Shown here in pieces: positions 3,405 through 42,703 of a stretch of 64,000 nucleotides of DNA; the first letter of the stretch is position 1; each line of letters opens with the position of its first letter. The stretch is taken from IMG/VR virus record IMGVR_UViG_3300026097_001055, positions 50,891 to 114,890 of that record, one strand, 5' to 3'. This stretch comes from a virus. A program made the translations under genes and the position numbers. The notes under the pieces were generated by a model. The model was not told the DNA's origin. It worked only from the letters and a program-made list of their open reading frames with translations, and ran no database searches.

Positions 3405-3462
3405 ACTTTTAAAGTTTAATTGTTATAAATAAATTTAGTATATTTAATTAAAGACTATAAGC
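3405..3462 (+). promoter_or_regulatory. AT-rich intergenic spacer with palindrome before the second cargo gene
   Basis: Directly after the stop lies the palindrome AAACTTTTAAAGTTT, followed by an AT-rich stretch and TATAAGC just before the ATG at 3463. A related arrangement (AAACT...AGTTT right after the stop, TATAAAA before the start) recurs at 9972-10038. The two could be transcript-processing hairpins combined with late promoter elements. The sequence shows the repeats; the role is inference. Confidence 0.3.
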
Positions 3463-21900: not shown

Positions 21901-24900
21901 AATTTATATGATGTCTGGAGGTAGTAAAATAATCAAAGGTGCTCCTGAAAGAAATACAATATTTAGAAGAATCTTAAATTTCCTAAAGAATTTATTTGTA
22001 GGTAAAGATGGAAATCAGATGCTTACTGAGATGTATAATAACTTAAGAAAAGGAGAGCTTAATACTTATTTACCAAGTCAGTCTAATAGAATATTCGGAA
22101 AGACATTAAATAAGTTTAAGCCTGTTCCTGGTAATACTCATGAATTTACACCACAAGATTTAATACATGCTAATGAGACAATTGGTGGATATCTTTCAGA
22201 AGTTATTTCAGACAAAACTATAGAAAAGGGAGCTTCTATATTTAGCTTATTGGTTCTTGACCCTAGTACAAACTTACCTAAAATTTATAAAAATGTACAA
22301 CAAAAATTAGAAGCTAAACTTTTAGAATTACAAGCAGAAGAAGAACTTACTTCCAATGAAGAAAATGCTATAAAGCTTATTTCAGCTATACTTGATAACT
22401 GGGGTAATTCTAAAATAGGTATGGTAGCTAATCATTTAGAATCTATCAAATATTTAGATATTACTAAAGTTGATTTTGATGAAGATGCTTTTAGAATTAC
22501 TGAAGAAGATCAAGAAACTATGCGCTTTGATGCTGCAGGTAATGACTTATCTTCTGTAGATGTAGCATCTAAAGGAGTCAAGTTAATGTTGTCTTTAATC
22601 CCTAACAGAGATAATGAAGGAGATGTATTTAGAAATGAGTTAGGAGCTGTTGAATTAGTTCCTTTTGCTAGAGTCTGGTCTGTTGTTAAAGACAAAGTTA
22701 TTGGTAAAAACTCTCCTGAAGAAATGATAGATGCTTTAAAAGAATTAAGATTTAGTTTTCCTTGGGTTATAGATATTATAAACACATTACAACCGGTTGA
22801 AAATATTAATAATTCTTCTAACTTACAGCAATTACTTTACTTAAGAAATAGTTTTTTCCATAGCTTTAATTTAGCTGAAAGAGACCTACACCAGGTAAAC
22901 ATAAATGAAGAAAAGACTATAGTAATTGATGAAGAAGGTGGTAAAACTGTAAATAAAAGTCACACAATAAGAACTGGTGTAGTAAGTGGTGTAAGTAAAT
23001 ATGCTATTACTGAATTTAGAAGTATGTTTGCTTCAGCAGGACCTAGTGAATTTATATTATCTACAACAGAAGGTAACGCTTTAAATGTAACAGCAGTATT
23101 AGATAGATGGACTAAAGCTCCTAACACACCTGAAGAAAAGTTAGCCTTTTTAAGACATTTAGGTTTAGTAATGGTTGATGTACCTGCGGTCAGAGAAGCT
23201 ATTAAGAATATTGAAGTAGGCTTTTTATGGAGTAGTTTAGATGAGTATAATAAAAATTATGTAATAGGTGGAGAAGCTAATGCTAATTTTATTATGGATC
23301 CTCTTACCTTATTAACTTTAGGTAAAAAAGAAATATATAAGATACAAGGTTCTACTAAAACAATGCCTAAAGTTACCGTAACTAGTCAAAGTAGTACCAT
23401 CAATGCTTTAGCTGAAATGCATGTAAAGTATTCAGGTAATTATGCTAACGTTGCTCTTACAACAGCTGATGGAAAGCAAAAGTATAACACAACACTTATG
23501 TCTTCATTAGATGTAATGGTTAAGGAATTAAATAATGTTGAGTCATATGCTGAGTTAGTTAACCTTCCTCATATGAGCCATTTAAAAATGGACAAGTTCT
23601 TTATGGCAAGTGCTAATCCTATTCTAAAATCTTTATTTGAATATGATGAGATTGCTGGTACTTTTGGTAAAAGAAGAAAAGGAATAGTATTTACAGTTGA
23701 TGACCTTACAGGAGTACAAACAGTAGTAAATGAATTATATGCAGACTTTTCTAGAAGTGTGGTAACTGCTAAAATGGATAGATTTACTAGAATACAATCT
23801 GACATATATAGTGGGTTAATGCAAGGTAAGTTTAGTACTACTACTCACTCCGATAAGAGTACAGCCTTAACCTATTATCTAAATAGCATAGAAGGTTCTT
23901 CACCTAAAGCTAAACACTTGTATGTTAATCCAACAGGATTTAGAATAAATGATAATACAGCAGGTATTGAAGAAGCTTTTGCTTTGTTAGAACCTTATAT
24001 TAATGGAGAGCTTGAAAGAATAAATAAAGTAAAAGCTTTCACTAATGGTGAAATAGAATTAGATAGAATTCCTGGAGTTACTATTCCTAATAGTAAAGGT
24101 AAAATGACTGGAGATAAGTTTAAATTTATCTCTGGTATATTTACTAATTCTACACTAGAAGATCTTTCTCAATACAATGATATGAGTGAGGTACCTGATG
24201 AATTAGCTCAGACAATGATAGAAGAATATTCTATGTATGTAGACACTAAAGTTGATGAAATAAAGGATATGTTAGATGGAACTTTATTTGTTGATGCTAA
24301 TATGATAGATCTTCTTAATTCTATGGGTGAAGGTCTTGAAGGAGTTAACCCTAAACAAAAAAGAGAAGCTGCAGAACATGCTGTGTTATACGGATATGTT
24401 ACAAATTATTTCTTTCATCAAGCTGCTACAGTATCCTTACTTTATGGTGATCTTACTGAATACAATATGGCTAAACATGATTTTAATAAACGTAATGCAG
24501 CAGTAGCAGCTACTGGAATACGTATGTTTAGAACAGACAGTGAAGCACTTACTTGGGTAAATGCTGAATACAAATCAACCTCTGATAAATTATCATACGC
24601 TCAAAAACAAGGAGTAGCTGATTATAGAATAGGGGAAGTGTTAAGAACAGCTGTTATTAAAGATCTTTTAAAAGATTCTGTTTCTATGGGTAGTCCTGAA
24701 ATGAAAAAACAGTTAATAGCTAAATATAAAGAAAGAGGCCTTAACCAAACGCAAGCTATAGAAGCAGCAGATAAGCTTATAAACTATTATAAAGGTATGG
24801 AGGTTGCTGATGCTCAAGGTTATATAAGCTTTGATCATTATAGAAAATTAAGAATGCTTAGTGATAGATGGTCTCCTTCATTAGATGCTATCTATTATAA

Positions 24901-27900
24901 AACAATAAATGCTCCAGAAACTGTTACTGAGGAAGAAATGTTACAAGCGTTTCCTCCATTAAAATACCAGTATGATGGGCCATTAGCTACTAAATCTTAC
25001 AATGCTCATGCTTTCCATAAGTATTCATTAGTCCCTTTAATTCCTACAGTGATAGAAGGAACTGATCTAGAAGTTTTACATAATACAATGATTGAACAAG
25101 GACTTACTTATACTACACATAAGACAGGTTCTAAGATTAGTGATGTTGTAGGTGAAACAAATGAGTTAGATGATTGGCATGGTTATTTAAGTACACCTGT
25201 GGATGATAGACCAGCTAGTTTTAATTTTACACCTAATGGTGTTTATCTAAAATATCTAAAAAATCAGTTAGATATCAACACTGTTAAAAAAGGCAAGGTT
25301 ATATTTTCTACTCAGATGCGTAAGCTTATCATAGACGGTATGTATAATATAGGTGAACCTATAAATGAACTAAGCCGTGAAAAAGTAGACAACTATGAAA
25401 AATCTTTAGAGTTGTTTATGGGCATGCGTTTACTAGATCTTCAACTAGAATTAGGAATGGATCCGGAAAATCCTAATTCTAAACCTGATAATGAAAAGCT
25501 TTTAAAATTAATTATTGATGAACTTGATGCTCAAGATATTGCTGAGCACAATCTAGATTACATTAAGCTGGACAGTCAAGGTAACTTTACTTATGACTTT
25601 TCTATAGGTTTGAATTCTTTACAGATAGAGCATTCTTTACTAGCTATTGTAAACAATAGATTAGTTAGACAAAAAGTATTAGGGGAGCCTCTAGTACAGA
25701 TGTCAAATGCAATGATGAGTAAAAGAAAAGCTACAGCAGATGAGTTGGAAACTTATGGTGATAGTGATTTAAAATTTTATCAACCTAATTATTTTGAAGA
25801 TGGTAGAACTTTAGGAGCTGAATCTAAGATATCTATAGGTCAAGGAAACTTCAAGCAGTTGTTTAACTTAATTGACTATAGAGATGGTCAAAAAGTAGGA
25901 GTTGTAGAAAAAGTAGAAAAGGATCTTGAAACAGGTAAGGAAAGAGTAATATACAATGAGAAAAAATCTTTAGAAAGACTTAATGATTTAATACAAGATG
26001 AGACTTGGAGAAAACAAGAAGGTAATATAGAATTAATATCTTTAGCTGGTGTACGTATTCCTGTACAAGGTCATAACTCAATGGTTAATTTTATTGTAAA
26101 AGAATTTTTACCAACCTCTGCCGGTTCTATTATTATACCACCTTTTGAAATTGTTGCTCAATCAGGATCGGATTTTGATATTGATAAGTTGTCTATACTT
26201 ATGCCTCATATTACTAGGCAAGGTAACTCTGTAAAAGCTCTTAGAGCTGACCTATCTATAACAAAAGCATCTGATATTATAGCTAAAAGAGCTGCAATTA
26301 AGACGAAATTAGTAACAGCTAAGAAATCTTTACAGGAAAAAAGAAGTGCCTTTGATATAGCTGCAAAAAAAGCATTCAAAGCTAAGTTAACGGCTGAACA
26401 ATTTCAAGAATTAAACTTAATTAAAAACGAGTATAGAGATTTAATAAAAGAGCAAACAGATTTATTAAAAGATGCTACAGAAGAAACTATAGAATTAATA
26501 GAAGAAAAGATTCTAGAATTAAATACGGCCCAATCTGAAGCAATAAAAGCTTTTGGTAGAAGTATCAATGAAGCCAGAGTAGTAGAGTTTGAAACTAACT
26601 CTAATGAAGCTAAAGAAGTAAATAAAGTATTAGAAACAATCAACTCATATAAATATGATTTAGCTACTCTTAATACTAAAGCTTTTGAAAATGAAATGTT
26701 ATTTAGTATAACAGACATACTAGCATTACCTCAAACATTTTTGTCTTTAATTACACCTAACAGTACTGATATGTTTACAGGTCCTGGTAGTCTAGTGGAA
26801 GAACTAAAAAAGTTTAGAGATTATAAATCAGAAAAAACCGTTCATGAAAAAGACCCGTATAATGATTTACAAAAAACTACCCCTGCTACTAATATTTTAG
26901 AGCCTGCCTACAACATGTCTATTCATGAGCAAAATTCTGTAGGTAAGGATGTATTAGGTACTGCAGCTGTAGCAAACACTTTTAACACTTTATTTGCTAG
27001 AATGGGCTTTACTATACCTAAGTCATATGAAGTGTTTACACCAAAAGGGTCTTACACTAGAGAAGTAGAAATATTTTTAAAAGCAAATGAAGTAACTATA
27101 GAAGGTGAAGAACGTATATCTTTAGCAAGTTTATATAATCAAAAAGGAGTTAAAATAGCAGACATTATAAATCAAATTATAAATGGATATGTTGACGTTG
27201 CTAAAGATGCTTGGATTTTTGATGTTCAAGGAAATAAACAATTAGCACCTGTTTTATTATTTCTTGTTCAATCAGGGGTACCTGTTGAGCAAGCTGTTTA
27301 TTTCTTATCTAACCCTGCTGTAAAAGAATACGCCCGATTAGTAAAAAAATACAGTTCTCCATTTACTCAAATTAAATCAGAAGATGATACTACTGCTAAC
27401 GAAAGAGCTAAAACAGAAATACTCAAGGAATTTGGAGTAAAGAAAACAGCAAATGCTGCAATTTTCGGCTTAGCTAAAAAGAAAAGAAATGAACTTAAAG
27501 AAAGAGGTATCACAGAGTTTAAAGAAACCTATTTAAAAAAATTAACATCTACTGAAGTATATGATAGACAAAATTTTAACATCTTTCTACACTTTTTAGA
27601 ATTACAAGATCATAGTAAGCATGTAACAAGTATAGTAACTAACTTTAATAATGATACTACTAGACAAACTGAATTGTATGGTCTGCAGCAAAAAGAAACA
27701 GAACAAAGAGCTGTACTATCTGAAAATCCATTCTTTTCTGAAACAGAATATGCCAAGCTACTTCAATCCCCTATAGGTAGTTTTTTTCAGGTTAATAATT
27801 TCCAGAATCAGTTATGGTCAGATTTATTTAATTTTTCAGCAGATACTGATATTAATGATATAATAAGTGATTTTTTAGCAGACTATGAACAAAGACAAAC

Positions 27901-29626
27901 TGCTATAAGCATGTTTGGTGATATTGAAAGATTTGCACCTGCTTTTAAGAAAGACTTTCTTACAGCTATGTTTATAGGTGAATTAAAGCAACTTGACTTT
28001 TTACAGAAGAAAGAGTATAAAGGGATACCTATATCAAATACAGATACTGTTGATTTAGTAGCTGTAAGTAAAGATGAAAACGGAAATGTTAGTATAAACA
28101 TTAATGAAGAAAATCTAAAAACTATATTTAATAAAAAACTTTACACCTATCAAAAAAGTAATACTAGTGAGTTAGCAGGTTTAACTTTTCAAAAACAAAA
28201 ATTGGCTACATTACATGCTAATACTTTTTCAGCAAAATTTGGATCAAGCTTTGAAGAGTTTGTAAAGTTTAACATAGAACGTGAGTTAATTAAATTAAAT
28301 ACACCTGTTAAAGAGTATGCAAAAACTGAAAATTACAAAATTAGAAATGCTAAAATAAGAAGCAAAAGAGCTAAAAGAACAGGAGAATCAAATGCAGCTT
28401 ATAACACACGTTTACAAGTAATTACATATAGAGAATATTTAAGAGACACGGCTCTTAACAATATACATAACTTATATGCTATGTTTGGAAGTAAAAGTAC
28501 AGCTGTGTCTACAAGACTTTATAATCTTCAGCAAAAATACCCTAGTTTAGCAAAATCATTTAATTTGTTTGGTGATCTAATACCTGATGTAAGTAAGCCA
28601 TCAAGAGCTACTAGAAATCCTCAGAATTATTATAACATTAAACTTAAAGATAACCGTGTAGAAAAAACTATGTTCTCAGTATATGCTGCTAACATCTTAG
28701 ACTTAATGAACCCTGAAACAATTCCTACTATAAAAGGTGAGTTAACAACAGCTGAACAAAAACAAGAAATAGCTGACTTCTTTAAAGACATTGCTACAAT
28801 AGCTGTATTACAATCAGGATATGATACTAGTAATCCACTATCTTTAATAAAAGCTGTTCCTGAAGAAGCCATTATAAAATTAGTTCAACAAGGTTTAAAT
28901 AAGCATTTTAATACTTTAAATCTGAATAACTTTTTAAATGATTTTATTCAGCAAAACTCTAAAGATGCTAGAAATTCTAGAAGAAGAATGAAAGCATACA
29001 TACCTTTAGATGTAGCAACAGAAAAATCTACAAAGACAAAAAGCTTAACAGAAACTTTAAAAGCTGCAATAAATAAAATTTACCCTGGTTGGATAAATAA
29101 TAAAAATAATGAACTTTCTTTAGTTTCTGAATTTAAAGCGCTTCAGCTATTATCTCAAGAGGAATCCTCAATGAAAGATAGAATTAGTTCTGGAAAAGAA
29201 GCTAAAAAATTAATTAGTGAAATTAAAAAAGGTAAAAATCCTTTTACAAAAGATACTAATGCTAAAGAAGTCCTGCCTAATTTATTTTACAATTACATTT
29301 CAGGAGAGTTAGCTAAAGATGGCATATCTGAAAAAGATATGTTTTTGAATTTATTTAATACTACACGAACACCTACTCAATCATCTACTAGTGTTAAAAA
29401 AGGAATTCCATTAAATTATGAGGGTGTTATTGAGGAAGAAGAATTAGATACTCCAGGTGAAACTATTAAAGATCCTATAACAGAGCTTAAAGAAATATTT
29501 AGTAATTTAGATGCCGCTACTAAAAAGAAATTAGGAGGGGTTACTAAAATAGTTAAGAACTATAAAGCTTTACCATTTGAGATGACTCCACAAGATTATA
29601 TAGAACAAGAAATTAATAAGTGTTAA
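18989..29626 (+). CDS. Virion DNA-dependent RNA polymerase giant protein with zincin-like domain (3545 aa)
   Basis: Predicted single-chain RNA polymerase of the crAss-like/YonO type. Such polymerases are packaged and injected to transcribe early phage genes, as shown for phi14:2 gp66. The decisive motif is GSDFDIDKL, with the three catalytic aspartates at D2395, D2397 and D2399. It is preceded by GVRIPVQGHNSMVNF and FLPTSAGSIIIPPFE, the expected double-psi beta-barrel context. Upstream, near residues 880-980, VAYHEAWHAFSQHF gives an HExxH motif (H906, E907, H910), with VEELIAEDFR downstream as a possible third ligand; this suggests a zincin-like metalloprotease domain fused ahead of the polymerase core. 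At 3545 residues it is much longer than phi14:2 gp66 (about 2180). The first 850 residues are unassigned. It starts 3 bp after the previous stop; the next gene overlaps its last codons. Confidence 0.85.
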   Translation: MKCSLNVEAQLGFTKIFSSGLLNIAKDPAKLEDFSLETYVNYLVNALESKGKDREVILNYVSIIPSIVGQLIPLTQFKPLRPGLRATESAELLDLISDAQGIEELNEIFFEKPSKDQLKKDLKTNRDNKRVDQANADEEVNENPPSDPESEKEMAAEITLNAVPDSVLASTQQVIDEDGNIKPEYVFYNTFLADLSDMLAGDTSAETLAKMSFTDTEGKTVKGITVRMAFLSQVVTNINKRKQNGIDTNPETSRVMPVVIFTNKKGEPIYFKKEDNGMYTVYTEEEAREENDALPVYFAVRAIEKKKGRWVSKTKIQTPLDILQTSKGGKRALEKYKEEDPDGYNADLERIDMQQQQEFLMLHLAKEKLKSTKLSKVRNLLNNHFKGGTYFLQGTLTKRGTGKSRNFNVTDAKAAPELKADDVKNMKVFINDNLQEIIDEQKLAGFKVMERKGVYITQMKKKPKLKTKDGSEFNDVYEIQLKFKKTVNGKIKYTTKTIGVLQATEFNTANTSSIEFAGISKGYIAVERTAETRTSSIKWESSDVPFNPALGGAKVRSTGINPGEIYIPAGNTNIPLQMDSISNEDINTINSLLFDKDLKTQASVKSRVKELSNEDRFKALATILTLGDRNEEGAQSHISGIQYYPKTGKVIVDGVTIKLDDPASVKRGKELVKSLLTETVTTKAGKDSGYTRIKYKISNTVLKTGGNIETYSIENGILKRVNVNVLDFIKDNSIIRVVPLNNEIKYVNGYVRFSLSETAVAEKEGMPTEAEEEVIEKVTPKKPVARRKTTPVKKDIKVTPPKFSETKPVDLTDRGNVGEQRTLDDDLPTIDDLLNKAKNSPELLDSDPVSDAQAKAWLEGPGKALFNNTGISFNRAFDVVNSNAFGTFRDGVISLWKGSDYTVAYHEAWHAFSQHFVTVGDKIKLYNYVAKTDSGKKALAEYAKEKQIDVDSLTDIQKYFAVEELIAEDFRIYMMSGGSKIIKGAPERNTIFRRILNFLKNLFVGKDGNQMLTEMYNNLRKGELNTYLPSQSNRIFGKTLNKFKPVPGNTHEFTPQDLIHANETIGGYLSEVISDKTIEKGASIFSLLVLDPSTNLPKIYKNVQQKLEAKLLELQAEEELTSNEENAIKLISAILDNWGNSKIGMVANHLESIKYLDITKVDFDEDAFRITEEDQETMRFDAAGNDLSSVDVASKGVKLMLSLIPNRDNEGDVFRNELGAVELVPFARVWSVVKDKVIGKNSPEEMIDALKELRFSFPWVIDIINTLQPVENINNSSNLQQLLYLRNSFFHSFNLAERDLHQVNINEEKTIVIDEEGGKTVNKSHTIRTGVVSGVSKYAITEFRSMFASAGPSEFILSTTEGNALNVTAVLDRWTKAPNTPEEKLAFLRHLGLVMVDVPAVREAIKNIEVGFLWSSLDEYNKNYVIGGEANANFIMDPLTLLTLGKKEIYKIQGSTKTMPKVTVTSQSSTINALAEMHVKYSGNYANVALTTADGKQKYNTTLMSSLDVMVKELNNVESYAELVNLPHMSHLKMDKFFMASANPILKSLFEYDEIAGTFGKRRKGIVFTVDDLTGVQTVVNELYADFSRSVVTAKMDRFTRIQSDIYSGLMQGKFSTTTHSDKSTALTYYLNSIEGSSPKAKHLYVNPTGFRINDNTAGIEEAFALLEPYINGELERINKVKAFTNGEIELDRIPGVTIPNSKGKMTGDKFKFISGIFTNSTLEDLSQYNDMSEVPDELAQTMIEEYSMYVDTKVDEIKDMLDGTLFVDANMIDLLNSMGEGLEGVNPKQKREAAEHAVLYGYVTNYFFHQAATVSLLYGDLTEYNMAKHDFNKRNAAVAATGIRMFRTDSEALTWVNAEYKSTSDKLSYAQKQGVADYRIGEVLRTAVIKDLLKDSVSMGSPEMKKQLIAKYKERGLNQTQAIEAADKLINYYKGMEVADAQGYISFDHYRKLRMLSDRWSPSLDAIYYKTINAPETVTEEEMLQAFPPLKYQYDGPLATKSYNAHAFHKYSLVPLIPTVIEGTDLEVLHNTMIEQGLTYTTHKTGSKISDVVGETNELDDWHGYLSTPVDDRPASFNFTPNGVYLKYLKNQLDINTVKKGKVIFSTQMRKLIIDGMYNIGEPINELSREKVDNYEKSLELFMGMRLLDLQLELGMDPENPNSKPDNEKLLKLIIDELDAQDIAEHNLDYIKLDSQGNFTYDFSIGLNSLQIEHSLLAIVNNRLVRQKVLGEPLVQMSNAMMSKRKATADELETYGDSDLKFYQPNYFEDGRTLGAESKISIGQGNFKQLFNLIDYRDGQKVGVVEKVEKDLETGKERVIYNEKKSLERLNDLIQDETWRKQEGNIELISLAGVRIPVQGHNSMVNFIVKEFLPTSAGSIIIPPFEIVAQSGSDFDIDKLSILMPHITRQGNSVKALRADLSITKASDIIAKRAAIKTKLVTAKKSLQEKRSAFDIAAKKAFKAKLTAEQFQELNLIKNEYRDLIKEQTDLLKDATEETIELIEEKILELNTAQSEAIKAFGRSINEARVVEFETNSNEAKEVNKVLETINSYKYDLATLNTKAFENEMLFSITDILALPQTFLSLITPNSTDMFTGPGSLVEELKKFRDYKSEKTVHEKDPYNDLQKTTPATNILEPAYNMSIHEQNSVGKDVLGTAAVANTFNTLFARMGFTIPKSYEVFTPKGSYTREVEIFLKANEVTIEGEERISLASLYNQKGVKIADIINQIINGYVDVAKDAWIFDVQGNKQLAPVLLFLVQSGVPVEQAVYFLSNPAVKEYARLVKKYSSPFTQIKSEDDTTANERAKTEILKEFGVKKTANAAIFGLAKKKRNELKERGITEFKETYLKKLTSTEVYDRQNFNIFLHFLELQDHSKHVTSIVTNFNNDTTRQTELYGLQQKETEQRAVLSENPFFSETEYAKLLQSPIGSFFQVNNFQNQLWSDLFNFSADTDINDIISDFLADYEQRQTAISMFGDIERFAPAFKKDFLTAMFIGELKQLDFLQKKEYKGIPISNTDTVDLVAVSKDENGNVSININEENLKTIFNKKLYTYQKSNTSELAGLTFQKQKLATLHANTFSAKFGSSFEEFVKFNIERELIKLNTPVKEYAKTENYKIRNAKIRSKRAKRTGESNAAYNTRLQVITYREYLRDTALNNIHNLYAMFGSKSTAVSTRLYNLQQKYPSLAKSFNLFGDLIPDVSKPSRATRNPQNYYNIKLKDNRVEKTMFSVYAANILDLMNPETIPTIKGELTTAEQKQEIADFFKDIATIAVLQSGYDTSNPLSLIKAVPEEAIIKLVQQGLNKHFNTLNLNNFLNDFIQQNSKDARNSRRRMKAYIPLDVATEKSTKTKSLTETLKAAINKIYPGWINNKNNELSLVSEFKALQLLSQEESSMKDRISSGKEAKKLISEIKKGKNPFTKDTNAKEVLPNLFYNYISGELAKDGISEKDMFLNLFNTTRTPTQSSTSVKKGIPLNYEGVIEEEELDTPGETIKDPITELKEIFSNLDAATKKKLGGVTKIVKNYKALPFEMTPQDYIEQEINKC

Positions 29627-29628
29627 TT

Positions 29629-32600
29629 ATGAGTGAACGTTGTATTTTAAAAAGTAATCCTCAGTACCAAAATATAGTAAAGATTTTTGGTGATAATGTA
29701 GCTTCAACTTTAGTAATTGAGTTTAATAAAAATATTGCAAGTACAGAAATGTTTTATCCAAAAGTAAAAACATTAACTAATTGGATATCAAAAAACAAAA
29801 CTGAACAAATAGCTAGAGTTAAAGATTTGCTTATAGCTGAACCAGGCATGACTGAAAAGGCTATATTTAATTTACTTTCAGGAGTTATAACTAAATTTGA
29901 AAATAGTTATATGGTTACTAGAGGTAACCTTTTTGGAGGAGGTCTTGTCAACAAAGCTTATAATGAAAAATATACTTATGGTGCTAACATAAGATTAATG
30001 AGAAAACTTGCTGAAGAATTCCCTCAGCATTTTGAAATTATAGATGGTGCTAAAAATAGCTTTACACATATTGTAAAGATTAATCCTATAAAACCAGATG
30101 TAAGTGGTGTCTCACAGCAATCAATTGGACCAGATGGGCAAACTAAATTGTTTGATTATAACGTAGATCCTACAACAAAAGGAGCTCAAACAAAAACTAG
30201 TCAAAGACTACAAAATTTATTTGAAAACAAACCAAAAGTTGCCGCAGTTGATATTGTAGACAAAATAAAAAAAAATAATCCAGAACTAAGACATCTTATA
30301 AATAAACTAGAAGGTTTAATTCCTGCTGGAACAGAAATAATACTAGAGGATTCAACAGGTTACACTACTCCTTTTGGTACAGCTAATGCTAAATATAATA
30401 AAGTAACTCAAGAGATATCTATTGCTAAAAATGCTTTGTTTGCTCAAAGCCCTGAAGCTGTAATACTTCATGAACTTATTCATAGAATAACTTCTGAGCA
30501 ATTAATATTGGATACTAAAGCAACTCTAAAGTTTGATGAGCTATTAACTCAAGTAAGAGAAAAGATAGGAACAAATAGATTTGATTATGCTCTACAGAAC
30601 AAAGATGAGTTTCTAGTAGCCGTATTAATGGATAAAGAATTTGGTGCAGCATTGTCTAAGTTAGAAGGTGTAGATAAAAAAATAAGCTTATTTGAAGAAA
30701 TTATAAACTTTATACTCAGGGTCATAAACATTGAAAAAACAGATAATGCTTATGACCAAGCTGTAAGTTTAGTAAATAGTATCCTAGAAACCATTAATCC
30801 TGTTGTGTCTAATCAACCTGTAAGTGGTATAAAACAAGGAGTGTCAGAACTATTTGAATCTAATCCTGAATTAGCTAATGAAGTATATTCAGCTTTAGGG
30901 TTTGATAGTGTTACTATTCCAAAATATAATATTAATAAAAAATTAAGCAATAAAGATGGAACTAAAAGACTAGCGCAAACTAACGGACTAAACATTACAC
31001 TTAATCCTGTTACATCTATACAAGAATTTTTTGATTATTTTACAGGAAAAGAAGGTGGAATATCTTCTCAACAAAAAAATAAAGTATTAGATGTTTTAAA
31101 AACAAAAGGATATTCTTTAGATAAAATAAAAAAGATACTTGACACAAAACTAAAAATAAATACTTTTTTAGTTTTGCACGAACAAGACCACATTGTTAAT
31201 AATGATAAAGATGTATATTGGAAATCAGGTAAAGATTTATTAACTTCTGATAAAATTAATATAGAAGCTAGAGCTACAATAAATGCTTTAAAGCAACTAG
31301 AAACTCAAATAACCCCACAACAAAAACAAAAAGCTCAACAACTATACTCTCAATATCTTGATACTATATTTCCTGATAGTAAAGTAAAGGATATTGTTTA
31401 TCATGGTACAGGTTCTTCAGAAACTATTGAAAACTTTAACAGAAGAACTTATTTTAGTATTTTAGAAACAGCTTCGGAATATGCTTCTTGGGATGCTAAA
31501 AATAGATTAGAGTATGCTGCTTCTCAAGATCCTAGTTTAACAAAAGATTGGAAATTTAAAGCTAACGTTATCCCAGCTATAATCAATCTTAAGGATCCTA
31601 AAATGTTAAACAAGAGACCTTATAAAGAAACAGAAAAAAATTATCCTGGACATGATGGAATATACTCAGAAAATACTGTAAATCCTTTACAGGGTTCAGA
31701 ATTACAAATAGTTGTTTTTGACCCTAAGAATACTTATATTTTAGGTTCTAAACAAGATATACAAGGATTTAAAGAGTTTGTTGGTACTGAAACTACACCG
31801 TCTTTAACAGAAGAAATAATAGATAATCCTGAAACTATATTTGTAGTAGAAGCTGATCAAGCAGGTAATGTATATACTGAAGAAACAGGGGTTACTAAAC
31901 TAGAAGCTTATCCTAATGTGGTAACTATTATAACAGCTAAGAATTTTAATAGTACAGAAAGTTTAACGGCTGCAGAACAAGACAGTTTAAAAGAAGATTT
32001 AGAAAACTCCTTAGACCTTTTAGAGCAAATAGTTACTGATGATACTGATGTAAAATTTGTAAGCAAGAATATGGGCCAAGGATTAGATGCTATAAACAGC
32101 AACTTCAAAGATTACCTTAAAGCCCGTCTAGAAAATGAACATGGTGTTAAGTCTAAAGAATCTTCTGTAGATCAAGTTAATCAAATAGAAGAAGAAGATA
32201 CTATAATTGCAGATCCTAAAGAAACCGAAAATAAACAAGAGACATTAGAAGAAAAACTTAATCCTAAAAAACAAGAAACTAGAAGATCTACAGCTTTTCT
32301 AATGGATGCTGTAAAAATGTTAATGGATAACTTAGGAATGCCTGAAAGCAGCGTACAGTTCATATCAGCAAATGAGGCAATGTCTATTACCAGAAATGCT
32401 AAAAACTCTTATAATGGACAACCTGCGTTCTTCTACAATGGTGTTGTATACTTTGTAGATGGTCAGATTGATTTTAAAACAGCATTGCACGAGGTTTCTC
32501 ACCCTTTTGTAAAAAGTATACGTTATCAAAATGAAACATTGTTTAACGAGCTTTATGACACTGTAGCAACATCTGAGTTAGGTAAACAAGTTATTGCTCA

Positions 32601-35600
32601 AGCTTTAGCTGACTATAATGCAAACTTAAATACAGCAGCTGATAGAAAAGAAGAAATTAATGATGATGTTAGAGAAGAAGTTATAGTAAGATTCTTAACA
32701 GAAGCTCTGGAACAAATTGTTTCAGAAGAAGGTTTGCAAACAACAGGTTCAGTAAAAGAACAAACACTTATTCAAAAGATCATTCAGAAAATAATGTTTG
32801 CTCTTAAAAAAATGTTTAGACAGGTGTTTGGTAGAACTTTAAAAATAGAAAAGCTTAAACCTACAACCAGTATAGAAGAACTTGCTAATTTATTAGTGTC
32901 TGAAAAGTTTCAAGTAAACATGGATATAGTTTCACAAACAGATGTAGTAGATTATATAAACAATGTAAATAAGATTAATGAGCAATTAAGAGATACAATA
33001 ATCAACACTAAAGATAAAGGTAAGATTGCATTACTTACAGCTATAGGAGATACTGCTCAAATGTATAAAAGTTTATTAAATACTCTAAAAGAAAATGATG
33101 ATATTGAAGGGTTAAAAATGGTATTAGAGGAAAATTATGATGGACAAACACGTATCACAGATTTACAAAAAGCAGCTAGAGAAATTAATGTAGATAAATT
33201 AACTGTATTAACTAAACTAGCTGAGGAAGAAAATGCAATAACTGAAGTTACAAGAGTTGGTCAAAATATAGTAACTATACTAGCCGGTCAAGAAATTGCT
33301 TTAGATAACATCAAAGTAAGATTAAATTATCTAAAAAATCAAAAAATAACTGATGATAAAAAATTAATCACGGAACTTAATACTTATAGAAATCATGTAA
33401 AACATGTACAAGAATTTGTAGATAATTTTGTTAAAATTGCTGATGAAATAGGCATAGAAGAAAATGATGAGATCCGAATAGAAATGGGTACTCTTTTCCT
33501 AAAAACTAAAAATAGATTAAAGGATATTAATAACATACATGAAGACATTGTACTTCCTGTTTTAAAAGATACTTGGGATATGTTTATGGGAGGTACCATA
33601 GCTGAACTTAAAGAGCAAAAGAAAAAGCTTGAAAAACTTCTTAAAACAGATGGTGCTTATAAAGCAGGAGTAGAAAGAAGCTTAAAAAATGTTAATGCTA
33701 GATTGGAAAAAACTGATATTGGTTTAGATGCTTTTAAAGAATATGCTTATGGTAAACGAGGTGATATAAATCCTATTTCATCATGGATGGAAAGTTATAT
33801 AGCTCAACAAGATCCTACAATATCTAGTTTTGCTGCATATGTAAAAATGGAATTGTCAGAAGCTCAAAATGCTGAGTATGCTAGATTTAATACCTTACGT
33901 AACAAACTAGATAAATTAGAAAAACAATTAGGTTTAAATCCATCTGATATAAATGCATATGCTAATGAATTTTTAACTGAAGATACTGTTAAAGTAAAAA
34001 ATGATCAAGATGAACTTGTAGACTTTGAAGTATATGCTATTCTTAATCCTTTTAAGAATACGGAAAATACTATGAGAGCAATGTATTCACGTATTCAAGA
34101 CATAAGAGATGCTGCTGAAAACCAAACACCCGGTGCTTTAAAAGAATTAGAAGAGCTAGAAGCTAAACTAAAATTACATAAAGCTCTTTTCTGGAATAAT
34201 GAAATGGTAGATGAGTATTATTTTACAGACATGCTTTTGTTAAATGCAGAAGGTGTGAATGGAGCTGCCTTATTAGAGCTTATATCAGAAAAACAAAAAG
34301 AAATTAGACATTTACATTCTCAAAGAAATTTTGCAGAAGATGAACTTGAGGTTAAAAAACTTTATGATGAAATCAAGCAGAAAAGATATGAAATTAGAGA
34401 ATTCTATTCTGATTACAATAATGGTGTAAAAAAAGATGAGCAAGGTTTAAAAGATGCTAAAGCTTTAAGAGAATGGAGAGAATCTAAAAATAAATACTAT
34501 GAGCTCAAACTTAAAAAAAATGATTTTGAAAAAGCCTTATTTGGATTTGAGCAAATTACTATAGCTAAGCTACAAGCTGAAGGTTATACTCAAGATGAAA
34601 TTACTGACGAGCTTGCTGATGCTAGAGAACAATGGATAAAAGAAAACACCAGAGTAGTAATTAATCAAGATTTTTATGATACTAAATCAAATATCCTTAC
34701 TGAGCTTAATGCAGTTAATGAAGAAATAGAAGAGTTCTTACAGAAAGATAAAACCTTATCAGATGTAGCATCATCTACAGTATTATATAATGGTAAGCTA
34801 TATCAAGTTACTTATTCAGAAGGTGTGTACACACTATCTAAAGAAAATGAACAAGATATAGAAATAGAAGCAGAAGCTGATACATTATTATCAGTACTAA
34901 ACATGAAGATACCTACAAAAAAAGCTTTTGATACTCAACGTGAATATATATTCCAATCTTTAATGGGTAAAAAAGATGAAAATGGAGAGTACAGAGTCAC
35001 TGAATTATCTGAAGAGCACATAGCTCTTATTAAAAAGATGCAAGAAGAGATTGAAGCAAATAAAAATCTTTTAGTTAATAACTCAGGTCTTAGCCAGAGT
35101 GAATCAAGAGAGCTACAAGATTTTTTTGAAAAAAGAAAATTAGCTCAAAAACTTACTACAAAAGAAAATAATAGATTCAAAAGTCTCTTAGCTAAAAAGA
35201 ATGACTTTAAAATACCAACAACTCTAAAAAATAAGCTTAGCATTTACACTAAAATGTTAGCTGAATTGCAGTCTAAAGAAGCTACTAGTTATTATTTAGA
35301 TACTGTAAATGACACATTTTATGACTTGCTTAACTTACATGATTTGTTAGATGGTCAAGACTTTGACTTAACTGTAGCTGAAACAATACTTTCTATACCT
35401 GTTGCTGAAGCTCTTATGGAATCAGATCCTAAGTTTAAAGAATGGTTTGAAAAAAATCATTTTATAGCAGAAGTATACATAGATGAAGAAACCGGTTATG
35501 AACAAAGATATCAACGTATAGAACCTTGGAATAAGATTGTTCCTAATGATCCGTCATACTATGAAAGTTTTGAACTAACTAATCCAGATGGTAGTACACA

Positions 35601-37884
35601 AACTATACAAGGATTACCTTCTATAGATTTCTATAATAGAGAGTTAAAAAATGAGTATAAATTAGGTTATGATCCAAAAACTGGAAAAGTTGATAATTCA
35701 GAATTTAAAGACCAAAGTGGTAATTATAAACCTAAAGATAAAACTCAGATGGAAAAAATGCGCTCTAAATATGGAGAGTATTTTCAACAATCTGAACAAG
35801 CTTGGGATCATTATCTTAATCTAGATTACTATAAAGTAATGGAAGAAGCAGGTCCTAAAGCTGAAATTCTTAAAACTCTTATAGAATATCATGAAGGTTC
35901 TCAAGAAGGTTTAGATCCTAATCAAATGATAGGAATGTATTTACCTAGATTTAGAGCAGATTTGTACCAAAACTTAACAGCAGATGATAAAGCAAACTTT
36001 ACTGATAGAATGGCTCAGATCTGGGAAAATACTCGTTCTCAGTTTAGACCACGTGTAGAAGACTACGAAGAGGGTTTTAACTTTGTAGAGTCTGTATATG
36101 CAGCTGATAAAATTGTGTATAGAACAGATAGTGAAAAAATACCTATTCAAGGTAAATATCTTTTAGATAAAGGACAAGTAAGTAGAGACATATTTGCATC
36201 TTTAGGAGCTTATGCATTATCTGCCGCTGAAAATAAAAAACTAAAAAAATCTAATCACATGGGTAGATTTTTACAAGATATTGCAAAAGCTAATACTCCA
36301 GCTACTATAACTAAAACTTTAAAAAAATCATCAATAACTGGTCAACTAGCACAAAATGCAGCTAATAAACTGAAAAGTAGTAAAGTTATTTTATCAGGTT
36401 CTGAAAACTTTAGAAGTGATACTATTGATGCAATGATAGAAACTAACTTTGAGGGTAGACAAATGAATACTGATTCTCCAATATGGCAACAAATAGTTAA
36501 GTTTACAAAACCTTTAACATCTATAGGTTCTTTTAGTTTCTTTGCTTTTGACTTACAATCAGCTGCTAAAAACTACTTAGGAGCACATGCTATGGTAGGA
36601 TTAGAATCCATTAATTCTAGATACTTTAGTTATAGATCTCACGTTCAAGCATTACCTTGGGCTCATTCAGCTATGGCCAATTTAGGAATGGAAATTTATG
36701 AAACAGAAGCTAACAGTTTAAAAGTACAAATGCTAATGGCATTTGATGCTTTTCAAGGGAGGTTTGAACAAAAGTTTGCTACTAACCCTGGTAGAAAGCT
36801 GACTAGAGATTTAGTAAACATGAATTGGACTAGTAACACTAGACAATACTTAGAGATAACCACAAATGTTGAAACTCTTGCTTCTATGTTACATCATGTA
36901 AAAGTGGAGCAGACTTTAGATAATGGAGAAGTAAAAACTATTAAATACGTAAATGCATTTGAACTAGATGAAACAACTAAAACATTAAAATTAAAAAAAG
37001 GTATAGATCCTAAATATGATGTTAATGGTGAAGAGTTTAATAAAGTAAAACTTGCAGCACAAGAACATAACAATTTTGCTCAAGGGGTTTATGCTAAGTT
37101 TGATAAAACCAGGTTAGAGAGAACCGTAATGGGTGCAATGAGTGTTAGAATGAAAAAGTTCTTTGTAAAAATGGCTATTAATAGATTTGCCTTAGAAGAA
37201 AGAACCAACCTTGCTACAGGAAGAGTAGAATCAGGATTTTATATAAAAACTGCTAAAACAATTAAACGTTTAGCGCAATCAGGATTAAGAGATTTAGCTT
37301 ATTTAGAAGCTGATGAAAAAAAAGCTTTAATACAAACTCTTGTAGACTTATTTAAAGGGTATGTTCTTTATGAGTTAATATTGTTAGGTTTATTTTTAGG
37401 ATTTGATTTTGATGATAAAGATAAATATAACAAAATGAAAGAACGTTCAGGGGCTTTACCTACACCCTTTACATCAGAAGAAGATTCTGAAGAATTCAAA
37501 GCAGGAGGTTGGATTTTAAACAATTTAACTTTACTTTTATTAAATACACATGAAGAGATAACTTTTTTCAATCCTATGGATTCTCCAATGTATGCTACAC
37601 TATCTAATTGGGGACCTGTAACAGAAAGTTCTGCAGTAGTAAATGGACTTAGTATTATTAAAGATATAAAAGATTTAGCTACTTTTCAAGGACTGGACGT
37701 TTACCAAAAAGATGTAGGTGCATTAAATGTACAGAAAAAAAATGAATACAAAATTTGGATGAAATTGTATAAACTAATAGGTCTTAAAGGTAAAATGATT
37801 GATCCTGTAACTTCTGCTAGAAATAAAATGAGCATGAGAAGACTCAGTAGAAGTGGTAAAAAAGAAGAAGAAGAAGAATTATAA
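29629..37884 (+). CDS. Giant virion protein with three HExxH motifs and an ADP-ribosyltransferase-like domain (2751 aa)
   Basis: Likely ejected multidomain protein encoded immediately after the RNA polymerase. I use the ATG at 29629; a GTG at 29620 would add three residues. Features, numbered from that ATG: HELIH at 281-285 followed by NKDEFLVAVL; HEQDH at 517-521 with IEARATINAL downstream; a predicted ADP-ribosyltransferase fold at about 585-715 (DIVYHGTGSSE, YFSILETASEYAS, IVVFDPKNTYIL), like the ART domains of polyvalent phage proteins; HEVSH at 954-958 with REEVIVRFLTEALE downstream. Residues about 1130-1900 are long charged helices, probably coiled coil. The C-terminal 650 residues contain hydrophobic segments (YVLYELILLGLFLGF) and a basic, then poly-Glu tail. 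ART and zincin assignments are motif-based. Targets could be host proteins or the virion proteins themselves. It ends at the bidirectional terminator. Confidence 0.8.
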   Translation: MSERCILKSNPQYQNIVKIFGDNVASTLVIEFNKNIASTEMFYPKVKTLTNWISKNKTEQIARVKDLLIAEPGMTEKAIFNLLSGVITKFENSYMVTRGNLFGGGLVNKAYNEKYTYGANIRLMRKLAEEFPQHFEIIDGAKNSFTHIVKINPIKPDVSGVSQQSIGPDGQTKLFDYNVDPTTKGAQTKTSQRLQNLFENKPKVAAVDIVDKIKKNNPELRHLINKLEGLIPAGTEIILEDSTGYTTPFGTANAKYNKVTQEISIAKNALFAQSPEAVILHELIHRITSEQLILDTKATLKFDELLTQVREKIGTNRFDYALQNKDEFLVAVLMDKEFGAALSKLEGVDKKISLFEEIINFILRVINIEKTDNAYDQAVSLVNSILETINPVVSNQPVSGIKQGVSELFESNPELANEVYSALGFDSVTIPKYNINKKLSNKDGTKRLAQTNGLNITLNPVTSIQEFFDYFTGKEGGISSQQKNKVLDVLKTKGYSLDKIKKILDTKLKINTFLVLHEQDHIVNNDKDVYWKSGKDLLTSDKINIEARATINALKQLETQITPQQKQKAQQLYSQYLDTIFPDSKVKDIVYHGTGSSETIENFNRRTYFSILETASEYASWDAKNRLEYAASQDPSLTKDWKFKANVIPAIINLKDPKMLNKRPYKETEKNYPGHDGIYSENTVNPLQGSELQIVVFDPKNTYILGSKQDIQGFKEFVGTETTPSLTEEIIDNPETIFVVEADQAGNVYTEETGVTKLEAYPNVVTIITAKNFNSTESLTAAEQDSLKEDLENSLDLLEQIVTDDTDVKFVSKNMGQGLDAINSNFKDYLKARLENEHGVKSKESSVDQVNQIEEEDTIIADPKETENKQETLEEKLNPKKQETRRSTAFLMDAVKMLMDNLGMPESSVQFISANEAMSITRNAKNSYNGQPAFFYNGVVYFVDGQIDFKTALHEVSHPFVKSIRYQNETLFNELYDTVATSELGKQVIAQALADYNANLNTAADRKEEINDDVREEVIVRFLTEALEQIVSEEGLQTTGSVKEQTLIQKIIQKIMFALKKMFRQVFGRTLKIEKLKPTTSIEELANLLVSEKFQVNMDIVSQTDVVDYINNVNKINEQLRDTIINTKDKGKIALLTAIGDTAQMYKSLLNTLKENDDIEGLKMVLEENYDGQTRITDLQKAAREINVDKLTVLTKLAEEENAITEVTRVGQNIVTILAGQEIALDNIKVRLNYLKNQKITDDKKLITELNTYRNHVKHVQEFVDNFVKIADEIGIEENDEIRIEMGTLFLKTKNRLKDINNIHEDIVLPVLKDTWDMFMGGTIAELKEQKKKLEKLLKTDGAYKAGVERSLKNVNARLEKTDIGLDAFKEYAYGKRGDINPISSWMESYIAQQDPTISSFAAYVKMELSEAQNAEYARFNTLRNKLDKLEKQLGLNPSDINAYANEFLTEDTVKVKNDQDELVDFEVYAILNPFKNTENTMRAMYSRIQDIRDAAENQTPGALKELEELEAKLKLHKALFWNNEMVDEYYFTDMLLLNAEGVNGAALLELISEKQKEIRHLHSQRNFAEDELEVKKLYDEIKQKRYEIREFYSDYNNGVKKDEQGLKDAKALREWRESKNKYYELKLKKNDFEKALFGFEQITIAKLQAEGYTQDEITDELADAREQWIKENTRVVINQDFYDTKSNILTELNAVNEEIEEFLQKDKTLSDVASSTVLYNGKLYQVTYSEGVYTLSKENEQDIEIEAEADTLLSVLNMKIPTKKAFDTQREYIFQSLMGKKDENGEYRVTELSEEHIALIKKMQEEIEANKNLLVNNSGLSQSESRELQDFFEKRKLAQKLTTKENNRFKSLLAKKNDFKIPTTLKNKLSIYTKMLAELQSKEATSYYLDTVNDTFYDLLNLHDLLDGQDFDLTVAETILSIPVAEALMESDPKFKEWFEKNHFIAEVYIDEETGYEQRYQRIEPWNKIVPNDPSYYESFELTNPDGSTQTIQGLPSIDFYNRELKNEYKLGYDPKTGKVDNSEFKDQSGNYKPKDKTQMEKMRSKYGEYFQQSEQAWDHYLNLDYYKVMEEAGPKAEILKTLIEYHEGSQEGLDPNQMIGMYLPRFRADLYQNLTADDKANFTDRMAQIWENTRSQFRPRVEDYEEGFNFVESVYAADKIVYRTDSEKIPIQGKYLLDKGQVSRDIFASLGAYALSAAENKKLKKSNHMGRFLQDIAKANTPATITKTLKKSSITGQLAQNAANKLKSSKVILSGSENFRSDTIDAMIETNFEGRQMNTDSPIWQQIVKFTKPLTSIGSFSFFAFDLQSAAKNYLGAHAMVGLESINSRYFSYRSHVQALPWAHSAMANLGMEIYETEANSLKVQMLMAFDAFQGRFEQKFATNPGRKLTRDLVNMNWTSNTRQYLEITTNVETLASMLHHVKVEQTLDNGEVKTIKYVNAFELDETTKTLKLKKGIDPKYDVNGEEFNKVKLAAQEHNNFAQGVYAKFDKTRLERTVMGAMSVRMKKFFVKMAINRFALEERTNLATGRVESGFYIKTAKTIKRLAQSGLRDLAYLEADEKKALIQTLVDLFKGYVLYELILLGLFLGFDFDDKDKYNKMKERSGALPTPFTSEEDSEEFKAGGWILNNLTLLLLNTHEEITFFNPMDSPMYATLSNWGPVTESSAVVNGLSIIKDIKDLATFQGLDVYQKDVGALNVQKKNEYKIWMKLYKLIGLKGKMIDPVTSARNKMSMRRLSRSGKKEEEEEL

Positions 37885-39605: not shown

Positions 39606-40410
39606 TTAAAAATTTAATGATTGTTGTTTTATTCTTGGAGATAATTTATCTATCTCTTTATTTATCTTATTTATATAAAACTGAAAATTAACGTCATATT
39701 GATCAAATGGTTTTTCTACATGTTTAATATGTATTGATTGTAACCAAGATCCTGCTTCTACTTGTGATTTTCTATCATCTGAGTAATTATGTTTAATTAA
39801 TTTTACTCCTTTTTTACTAACATAATACCTGATAGTTTTTTGCAAAGGATCTTGAACTAATTCAGAACCTTTGATATATTCAGCACGATATGACCAATTT
39901 CCGTTAATCTTTTTTCCCGCACAATAATCAAATATATTGACATTAGTTTTTAAATATGTGGCTGGCTCTATGCCATGTACAAAGTAATTATAAATAGCTT
40001 CAGGTATTACTTTAAAACTCTTGTTTTTATGAAGAGGTAAATCATAATAATCAAAACTACCTTTACATTTTGTTGCACCATAATAGTACTTACCACTTTC
40101 CTCTTTATATAGGTAATGCGGATTTTCAGTTTTTATCTCATCATATACTTCTTTATCTACTTCTTTATAATTATGAACTGCAATATAGTTATTAACATCA
40201 CGCAGGATAATTTTAGAATAAGTATCATGTTCTAATTGTAAATTGGTTAATTGTTCCCATTCTTTACATATTTCATAATATGATTCTTCATATTCCCTTG
40301 GTATTTTTGTTTCTAAACCATCTGTGTTCTGCATTATAGGTATAGCACCAGGAATTCTTTCCATAATCATTTCATATAACAGTGCTAGTGATAGCTGACC
40401 GTTAATTGTG
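39606..40410 (-). CDS. DNA polymerase family B, 3' exon (motif C and thumb)
   Basis: This is the C-terminal part of the replicative polymerase. TINGQLSLALLYEMI leads to PIMQNTDGLE, the motif C equivalent (NTD in place of the usual DTD), then KIILRDVNNYIAV. No ATG exists at its head: the open frame begins only with a TTG at 40424 inside the intron, which argues that it is an exon and not an independent gene. Joining base 41517 to base 40410 recreates ...EFTMRI-TINGQLSL in frame. The total coding length of the two exons is 1187 + 805 = 1992 nt, exactly 664 codons (663 aa plus stop). See the intron entry for the splice-site evidence. Confidence 0.85.
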
Positions 40411-40429
40411 CATTTAATCCCCAAAATTT

Positions 40430-40558
40430 CTAAAGGGGGCGGATCATATCTTCTTGATATTTAAAATTTTTATTACCTGTGTGTTTACGCAAACCTTTAC
40501 ATACTTTTGCAATAGCTGATTCATCTAGCTTATAATAAGCTGCGGCTTCTTTTATTTA
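40430..40558 (-). pseudogene. Readthrough remainder of the homing endonuclease (last NUMOD1-like module)
   Basis: In frame after the TAA, 41 codons encode IKEAAAYYKLDESAIAKVCK followed by GLRKHTGNKNFKY, a typical terminal NUMOD1-like DNA-binding module, before overlapping the intron P8/P7 3' strands. The TAA replaces a residue between LYN and IKEAA; a single base change from TCA (Ser) or CAA (Gln) would explain it. Confidence 0.7.
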
Positions 40559-41359
40559 ATTATACAATTGCTTATCATTTACACACACTACAGGAGAAAT
40601 ATGATTATTGATATAAATTGGAAATTCACCATCCTTTTTACATAATATCCATTTTTTCGCTGATTTTCTAATACCCATTACACAACTGTTTATTAATTGT
40701 TTAGAACAACCAATGCTTTTTGCAGCGTGTTCCTGAGTAAGAAAATAACGTATTTCATTTGTATTCAAATTCTTTCCTTTTAGTCTATGTTTACTCTTAA
40801 TTAATTTTTCAAAATTCTTATCAAAAGACATGAGCCACTTACTTAAAATAAGTGATCCATATAAAGCTGAAGGAGTTACTTGTAAATATACTGCTGCTGA
40901 ACTAATTGAAGTAAACTCAATAATTTCTGAAGTAAATATATTATACAAATAACATCTTTTAACATGAGCTGTTGTTGGTAATAGTATATGATTTGTTAAA
41001 TCATTATATTTAGCAATTAACATCTCTTCTTTTGATAATGCATTTTCTAAATCATTATAAGAATCTACAATAGTCATTATTATTTGATTACCTGCTTTCA
41101 ATTCTTTATTTATCCAATTACTTTTATGGGTATTGTTAAAATAAGATTTTGACGTGTGGTGAGATAATCTTCTTAAAGGATCTGAAGTAATACCTACATA
41201 ACGCACTTGTTTATCTTCCGTTGAAGAAAGTGTGTATACGTATATTTTATTTATCAAGCACGGTGTTTCCCAGACTATATATTTATTTAAGTCAAGTACT
41301 CTCTTGCGAGATGATCTCTGAACTCTTCCCTGTTCGGGATTCAGCTGCTGATTGTCCAT
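40556..41359 (-). CDS. GIY-YIG homing endonuclease, intron-encoded, with premature TAA (267 aa)
   Basis: Endonuclease that would spread the host intron by cutting intronless polymerase alleles. The GIY-YIG core is KIYVYTLSS...VRYVGITSDPLRRLSHH near residues 38-70. NUMOD1-like DNA-binding modules follow: YNIFTSEIIEFTSISSAAVY, then EIRYFLTQEHAAKSIGCSKQ, and CVNDKQLYN at the end. Residues 1-35 are read from the catalytic core of the intron, so the true start may instead be a TTG at about 41254-41256, directly ahead of the nuclease domain. After the TAA at 40556-40558 the same frame continues as IKEAAAYYKLDESAIAKVCK and GLRKHTGNKNFKYQ to a TAG at 40430-40432, which completes the third module. The visible form is therefore probably a nonsense-truncated protein. 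Confidence 0.82.
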   Translation of the reverse strand: MDNQQLNPEQGRVQRSSRKRVLDLNKYIVWETPCLINKIYVYTLSSTEDKQVRYVGITSDPLRRLSHHTSKSYFNNTHKSNWINKELKAGNQIIMTIVDSYNDLENALSKEEMLIAKYNDLTNHILLPTTAHVKRCYLYNIFTSEIIEFTSISSAAVYLQVTPSALYGSLILSKWLMSFDKNFEKLIKSKHRLKGKNLNTNEIRYFLTQEHAAKSIGCSKQLINSCVMGIRKSAKKWILCKKDGEFPIYINNHISPVVCVNDKQLYN

Positions 41360-41516
41360 TTTGTGTTATTTATTATAAATTTACAATAAACATTACACTC
41401 ATACAAACATTTTTTAAGCATTCAAGCTTAGTCATATTTCATACTTACTTTGTAGCATGTTTGTCTTTAGGATATTCCAGCAATTAACCGTGTTTATTGA
41501 GAACCACTTTTATTTA

Positions 41517-42703
41517 ATCCTCATTGTGAACTCTGGATCATATAAAAAACAGTTCTTATCATTACTCAAACCATAAGTACTGTTTAATATAATCTTGTAT
41601 ACGTAGTTTCTTATATCTTTTTTGCTGATCTTTTTTCTTTCATCAAAAAACCATTCATATAGTGTGCAAAATTCTTTATTAGGTAAATGAGCAGGAGACC
41701 ATCTGTTTCTAATAGCAAGATTAGGATAAAAACTAGTTACATCACTAGACATTATTATCATCTTATCATCAGATTTGTAGATACCTCTTTCATTAGCTCC
41801 ATGAATACCACCTAAACCAAAATCAGTTTTTGCACCTTTGTATCTCAATGAATACTTAAATCCATCTTTTGTTCTTTCAGGGTCAATGATGACCTCAGAA
41901 AACTTTCTTTTAAGTTTTTGAAACGTTGCTGTTTCAAAATTTAGATATTCTAAAAGAATGTTTTTTACAACAATTTCTTGTCTAAATGTTCTTAATTGTT
42001 TGAGCTCATACTTAGATGTTCCCAACTCTTTACTTAGAAAATGTAAGAATAACTCTTTAGAAATTTTGGGCTCAGATGCACTGTATAAATCAATATTATA
42101 CTCTTTACTTAATGTATTTCTTAAAGATATTTGTTTCTTACTAAGCTTCATTATAGCTTTAGTAGATTCAACATCATTTACACAATATGTAATAATCATA
42201 TCTATTTCTTCAATAGTATTGATGTCTTTACTGTGGGGAATAGGCATATCTAATATATTATGCCAATCCATAGAATATTGAATCCATTTTAACGAACTTC
42301 TCTTAGCAGGATTATCCCAATGGTTTAGTTTAAATACATCCACTTGTTTTATCTGAAGATCCCTAGGACTGTATTGTAACCATTCACCACTATCCTGTCT
42401 ACTTATTACATCTTGAGCTACTTTATAAATTTGATTAGCAGCTTCTTCACCACTCATAAAAGTTAATTCAGTAGCATTTCTAAGTATAAATTCAGTAATT
42501 TGAGAATCAAAACCTAAACCATTATAAGATACATGCCATTCACGCATTAACACGTTTTGTTGCAAAAAGGCTATCAATTCTTGCACATTATTGCGTAATT
42601 TGTGAATAACAAATATCTCTTTATGATCAGATCGGGCATCTATAAATACAGCTACAAAACAATTTTTTAATGTTTCATAATCATGTACCCAATCTCTTCT
42701 CAT
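41517..42703 (-). CDS. DNA polymerase family B, 5' exon (exonuclease, motifs A and B)
   Basis: Replicative DNA polymerase. The 3'-5' exonuclease motifs are DYETL (residues 9-13, Exo I), HVSYNGLGFDSQI (Exo II) and YCVNDVESTK (Exo III). Polymerase motif A is SSDVTSFYPNLAIRN and motif B is YKIILNSTYGLSND (Kx3NSxYG), followed by FLYDPEFTMRI where the intron begins after the second base of the Ile codon. Unspliced, translation would run two codons into the intron to a TAA at 41510, giving a protein without motif C. With the 3' exon it makes 663 aa, a compact family B enzyme. The start overlaps the upstream 128-aa gene by one base. Confidence 0.9.

Follow-up and report, generated by a model that had tools for sequence, protein, structure and literature searches.

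The split polymerase gene and its phage

The window, i.e., the whole 64,000-nucleotide stretch of viral DNA that was analysed, carries on its minus strand a DNA polymerase gene that is interrupted by a group I intron, and this intron encodes a GIY-YIG endonuclease (Table 1). Joined at 41517/40410, the two exons sum to exactly 664 codons including the stop, and they align with phrog_1252 profile positions 52-430 (exon 1) and 431-657 (exon 2), i.e., with the two halves of one family. These boundaries agree to the base with those of an earlier, sequence-only reading of this DNA, which had also claimed the 664-codon sum.

That reading had held that intact homologues with a different exon boundary would speak against it. 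Codon 396 is uninterrupted in all 69 polymerase relatives that were retrieved via exon 2 (28-66% identity over the aligned polymerase; homologue sequence around this codon, ...DPEFTMRITINGQLSL...), and this continuity fixes both splice sites and the phase 2 insertion to the base. The insertion is flanked by motif B (NSTYG) on one side and motif C (NTDG) on the other, as read off the sequence and as proposed earlier. In the motif A-C region, the spliced product is 47-51% identical to annotated phage polymerases, some of which are labelled family B or PolB; Pfam polymerase models match neither exon taken singly. By homology to known PolB, the predicted spliced product is a family B DNA polymerase.

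The portal protein matches 125 records, mostly of crAss-like phages (best match, Leptolyngbya phage Lbo-JY46, 30% identity), and the terminase is also nearest to crAss-like phages; the identity of both proteins to any isolate is low. Portal and terminase place the window phage near the crAss-like phages (Crassvirales-like). Two huge neighbouring frames on the plus strand, 3545 and 2754 aa long (window 18989-37884), lie in the block used by crAss-like phages for virion-associated proteins and RNA polymerase. In L094 (3961-7236; G000:C1:23961-27236), a 1091-aa frame for the large terminase subunit has further matches to primase and DnaC-like ATPase families within its first 410 residues, and might have an N-terminal extension. 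Also in L094, an Rfam abiF RNA is matched at the gathering score (37.1 vs 37) among structural genes (15319-15354), probably by chance.

Table 1. Features of the interrupted polymerase locus and of the three-intron polymerase gene of L070 (IMGVR_UViG_3300037488_003165)
Feature	Coordinates	Strand	Remarks
PolB exon 1	41517..42703	(-)	1187 nt; ends in phase 2 inside codon 396; phrog_1252 DNA polymerase, E 6e-83
PolB exon 2	39606..40410	(-)	805 nt including stop TAA; phrog_1252, E 1.3e-46
Group I intron	40411..41516	(-)	1106 nt; class IA-like; omega G; limits from 69 intronless homologues and five same-site copies
Exon 1 flank	41517..41537	(-)	21 nt; putative co-conversion footprint; 20/21 positions invariant in four diverged carriers
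P1	41498..41523	(-)	exon TGAGGAT (41523-41517) with guide GTTCTCA (41504-41498); U-G at splice site
P10 strand GTG	41505..41507	(-)	partner, exon 2 CAC (40410-40408)
P3	41487..41492; 41264-41259	(-)	5' CACGGT with 3' ACCGTG; pairing in the partial Rfam match
P4	41477..41482; 41351-41346	(-)	5' TGCTGG with 3' TCAGCA
P5	41355..41472	(-)	41472-41470 with 41357-41355; extended L5 rich in hairpins
P6 and P6a	41318..41344	(-)	CTGAA/TTCAG and TCCC/GGGA
P7	41312..41316; 40446-40442	(-)	5' GATCA with 3' TGATC; identical pair in L077
P7.1 and P7.2	41273..41311	(-)	P7.1, TCTC GCAA GAGA (41311-41300); P7.2, GACT/AGTC (41293-41273)
P8	41252..41258; 40459-40453	(-)	5' CTTGATA with 3' TATCAAG; endonuclease body in L8
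P9 hairpin	40419..40438	(-)	CCCC/GGGG; loop holds stop TAG of the intact frame (40432-40430)
GIY-YIG/NUMOD1 homing endonuclease frame	40556..41359	(-)	267 aa; TAA at 40558-40556; Pfam domains, intact orthologues
Severed C-terminal endonuclease part	40430..40555	(-)	I-HmuI_NUMOD-like in orthologues; then P8', P7' and P9 5' strand
L070 intron A	698-1864		GIY-YIG frame; partial Rfam match, 31.7 bits, E 1.5e-6
L070 intron B	2578-3781		inside NSTYG motif; GIY-YIG frame
L070 intron C	3844-4949		same intron as window 40411-41516

Structure of the intron RNA

The elements of a group I intron are present in complete order, i.e., P1, P10, P3, P4, P5, P6/P6a, P7, P7.1, P7.2, P3', P8, P8', P7', P9 and a terminal G. 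The structure was assessed on an alignment of six intron copies, those of the window and of five other contigs (see below), from which most of L8 was removed, leaving 58 pairs in 12 helices. Standard pairs occupy 98.6% of the pair cells, against 32-43% when the partners are slid by 1-3 columns; the helices P3, P4, P7, P8 and P9, which had been read as complementary and correctly ordered from the window copy, are thus borne out. The core P3-P4-P6-P7-P8, with its P3/P7 pseudoknot, is paired in all six copies, the only exception being a single mismatch in P8, found in five. In the window copy alone, T replaces A in the 5' strand of P8, by which the helix closes to seven pairs. The same change turns endonuclease codon 35, ATG and a possible start in the relatives, into TTG.

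The pairing of the exons with the intron, likewise predicted from the window copy, is preserved: P1 has 7/7 pairs in all six copies, P10 is kept, and the 3' end ...ATTAAATG, with G as its last base, is common to all six. In P1 of the L074 copy, C stands in place of an exon G and G in place of the guide U, so that a G-U pair becomes C-G and pairing is maintained; this is a single compensatory event, not a statistical test. The similarity of the six copies is too high for statistical covariation of the core to be obtained: over the whole alignment, one pair has changes on both sides, a value reached in 80 of 500 shuffles.

P7.1 and P7.2, the extra hairpins of class IA introns that had been recognised earlier, lie between P7 and P3' and are unchanged in the six copies (TCTC/GAGA and GACT/AGTC); on this basis the predicted RNA is a group I intron of class IA-like type. 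The P7 pair GATCA/TGATC, which had been considered a compensated departure from the usual pair, is real and not unique: an unrelated intron in L077 (8580-8894), which scores 52.5 bits and so above the Rfam gathering score, has the same pair, which makes it a variant rather than an oddity. L077 (8580-9686) and L078 (1417-2517, minus strand), which are unrelated viral contigs, each have three consecutive group I introns above the gathering score, and in L077 as few as 18 nt separate two of the Rfam matches.

The Rfam search that had been proposed for the window intron gave a mixed result. With Intron_gpI (RF00028), a 311-nt slice yields a weak match at 41495-41258 (18.4 bits, E 0.015), which spans only the P3-P3' part and falls below the gathering score of 50; reaching that score was not taken as part of the biological definition of a group I intron. 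A 7-kb search and a search of the whole record give no group I match. L070 intron A, which carries an endonuclease frame too, likewise stays below 50 (31.7 bits), and the 3' part of L070 intron B has no Rfam match. For the window intron, the insertion of about 790 nt in L8, which parts P7' and P8' from the remainder, is the likely cause of the weak or absent match. Annotation based on Rfam therefore overlooks introns with an open frame in P8, and the polymerase is reported as two broken genes.

The GIY-YIG endonuclease

The group I reading stood as first made, and the endonuclease, its truncation and the horizontal mobility of the intron are additions to it. In the window frame, GIY-YIG (PF01541, 38.4 bits) and NUMOD1 (PF07453, 36.6 bits) both score above the cut-off, and the intron endonuclease is the sole GIY-YIG match in the whole record of the window. 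An HNH_3 domain (56 bits) lies in a 203-codon open frame in L093 (5533-5670; G000:C1, minus strand), possibly a second mobile endonuclease of the window phage.

In five relatives, the frame is intact and encodes 309 aa; it begins in the P5/P4' region and extends into L9, where it stops. The window copy has an in-frame TAA at codon 268, where the relatives have TCA, with loss of the last 42 residues. These residues include the I-HmuI_NUMOD-like module (PF22083), which scores above the cut-off in the two intact copies tested (L070 residues 265-295, E 3.3e-7; L074 residues 266-294, E 8.5e-10).

As judged from codon statistics on ten of the fifteen copy pairs, the endonuclease is under purifying selection (dN/dS 0.21-0.31). 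The values for pairs involving the window copy (0.28-0.31) leave neutral decay of the endonuclease unsupported and suggest that, unless it is an error, the nonsense change happened recently. Recoding of the TAA was ruled out, as TAA also terminates the polymerase and the relatives carry TCA. Past the stop, codons 269-300 still look protein-constrained in comparison with the relatives (pS 0.19-0.33, pN 0.03-0.08), suggesting that the stop either arose recently or stems from faulty assembly.

Codons 1-34 of the endonuclease are at the same time ribozyme core, and have hardly any synonymous change (pS 0-0.05), so that selection at the protein level is unreadable there. Translation of the frame out of the ribozyme core at both ends (P5 through P3', and P8' to L9), with the RNA constraining the protein, is a tentative and rather doubtful proposal. 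If true, the window element would be a phage GIY-YIG intron with double-ended core creep, one stretch of DNA specifying both catalytic RNA and protein; GIY-YIG frames that overlap the intron core have already been published (PMC3073962).

Carriers, mobility and the exon 1 flank

The same intron occupies the same position in five other IMG/VR contigs (L070-L074); four different probes found no further carriers of it. In L070, PolB consists of four exons and three introns, each with a GIY-YIG frame, and the exon between introns B and C is only 62 nt long. The nucleotide identity of the five introns to the window copy is 86-89%, compared with a polymerase protein identity of 48-66%. At fourfold-degenerate sites among L070, L071 and L072, the endonuclease is 93-97% identical and the polymerase 42-46%; the intron has thus moved horizontally. 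In the polymerase tree, the carriers are scattered, and their distribution takes five changes, at least three of which are forced by well-supported branches. The endonuclease has no match in annotated phage records or in bacterial or archaeal genomes that would point to a donor or host; polymerase exon 2, searched in genome contigs for a host, also gave no match.

Upstream of the insertion, 20 of 21 exon 1 positions are invariant in four diverged carriers, a level reached by 7 of 1805 windows of the gene, all seven overlapping this flank. In intronless alleles, of which two equally diverged sets were compared, the same flank has 13/21 and 16/21 invariant positions. On the exon 2 side, the carriers have no comparable invariant tract past CAC, and L074 has the intron with a flank that is not common to the other carriers. 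Co-conversion by I-TevI is biased towards exon I, since the enzyme remains attached to exon II (PMC2988022), and the flank matches the expectation for putative co-conversion by an I-TevI-like GIY-YIG endonuclease. Seven of the 21 nucleotides may have been kept by P1 pairing instead. The footprint predicts where the endonuclease would cut.

Proposed mechanism and alternatives

Taken together, the window intron is very probably a mobile class IA-like PolB intron that splices and that homes through its GIY-YIG endonuclease with co-conversion of exon 1; the window copy is probably impaired in homing. From structure and conservation, we infer that the RNA would fold into the P3-P9 core with GTP bound in P7, that cleavage would follow the U of the P1 U-G pair, and that ligation of the exons would restore an intact polymerase, with ...ATGAGGAT + CACAATT as the junction in the mRNA. 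In a co-infecting phage whose polymerase gene lacks the intron, the endonuclease would cut on the exon 1 side of the insertion site, and repair from the donor would carry over the intron and some 20 nt of adjoining exon 1, as the footprint and the horizontal spread suggest. In the window phage, a recent nonsense codon would have taken away the C-terminal DNA-binding module, and the copy now resident there is probably still able to splice but impaired in homing.

Vertical inheritance from a common ancestor followed by many losses would agree with the presence of all carriers in one polymerase lineage and with the identical position and phase of the insertion. It is scarcely credible, however, given that L070 and L071 share 72 of 74 fourfold sites in the endonuclease against 47 of 106 in the polymerase, that the sister of the window phage in the polymerase tree is an intronless phage (L001; support 100/99), and that the exon 1 flank is invariant solely in carriers. 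In its simple form, vertical inheritance is excluded on these comparisons, by the fourfold divergence and the tree. Loss of splicing, with the polymerase made as two assembling polypeptides like the split gp43A/gp43B of T4-related phages, is also very improbable. Translation of exon 1 would end at a stop two codons beyond the junction, an in-frame TTG lies upstream in the case of exon 2, and the split PolB proteins of Aeromonas phage 25 co-purify and are active (PMC2988022). But exon 2 lacks an ATG start, none of the twelve helices is disrupted, and the core of the window copy is 94-97.5% identical to the other copies, compared with 82-85% for the endonuclease body; further, the sole P8 change of the window copy improves pairing, and the P1 and P10 pairings with the exons, which would be pointless without splicing, are preserved.

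The least improbable of these alternatives concerns the homing-impaired state alone, namely that the window phage has an intact endonuclease and the TAA arose in sequencing or assembly. The difference is one base, and the frame beyond the stop is open and looks constrained, consistent with an error. Against this, TAA is an ordinary stop in the window phage, and the locus has a second departure from all five relatives, the loss of the likely alternative start at codon 35. An error is thus considered unlikely, though a real chance of it is allowed for, and the intron as a mobile, splicing element with a recently truncated endonuclease is the preferred reading.

Comparison with known systems

The T4 td intron with I-TevI is similar in being a class IA-like group I intron with a GIY-YIG endonuclease and exon 1-biased co-conversion (PMC2988022), and in that its endonuclease frame overlaps the core (PMC3073962). 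It differs in its host gene, thymidylate synthase, and in the location of the frame, which is in the P6 loop in td and in P8 in the window intron. I-TevI has a zinc finger and a helix-turn-helix, whereas the endonuclease of the window type has NUMOD1 and I-HmuI_NUMOD-like modules.

The SPO1 polymerase belongs to family A. Introns of SPO1, Bastille and other Herelleviridae likewise reside in the phage DNA polymerase gene, with up to three in one gene (I-HmuI, I-BasI; PMC11878797), and the SPO1 intron, like that of the window, has its endonuclease in P8 (PMC3073962, Table 1). I-HmuI and I-BasI are, however, HNH nicking endonucleases, and that of the window is of the GIY-YIG type. PolB is also interrupted near mobile endonuclease genes in T4-related phages; according to the account of Petrov et al. 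(2010) given in PMC2988022, the split gp43 consists of separate polypeptides parted by seg genes or untranslated spacers, whereas the window intron keeps its splice-site pairing.

Both the kind of phage and the gene are the same in crAss-like phages of the Delta and Zeta groups, where PolB is among the core genes that are split by group I introns with endonuclease domains (Yutin et al., 2021; PMC7886860). Those introns are from human gut phages and were detected by their endonuclease domains, and the available part of that report mentions no splice sites, RNA fold or GIY-YIG. The window phage, in contrast, is of a distant lineage and its insertion site is mapped to the base; no split at this site is found in 924 matching annotated phage records at the sensitivity of that search. 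PolB introns of crAss-like phages were thus already reported in 2021. New are this particular intron, the site of its insertion and its endonuclease; together they provide a base-accurate case, with alleles both with and without the insertion, of group I intron transfer among divergent crAss-like phages.
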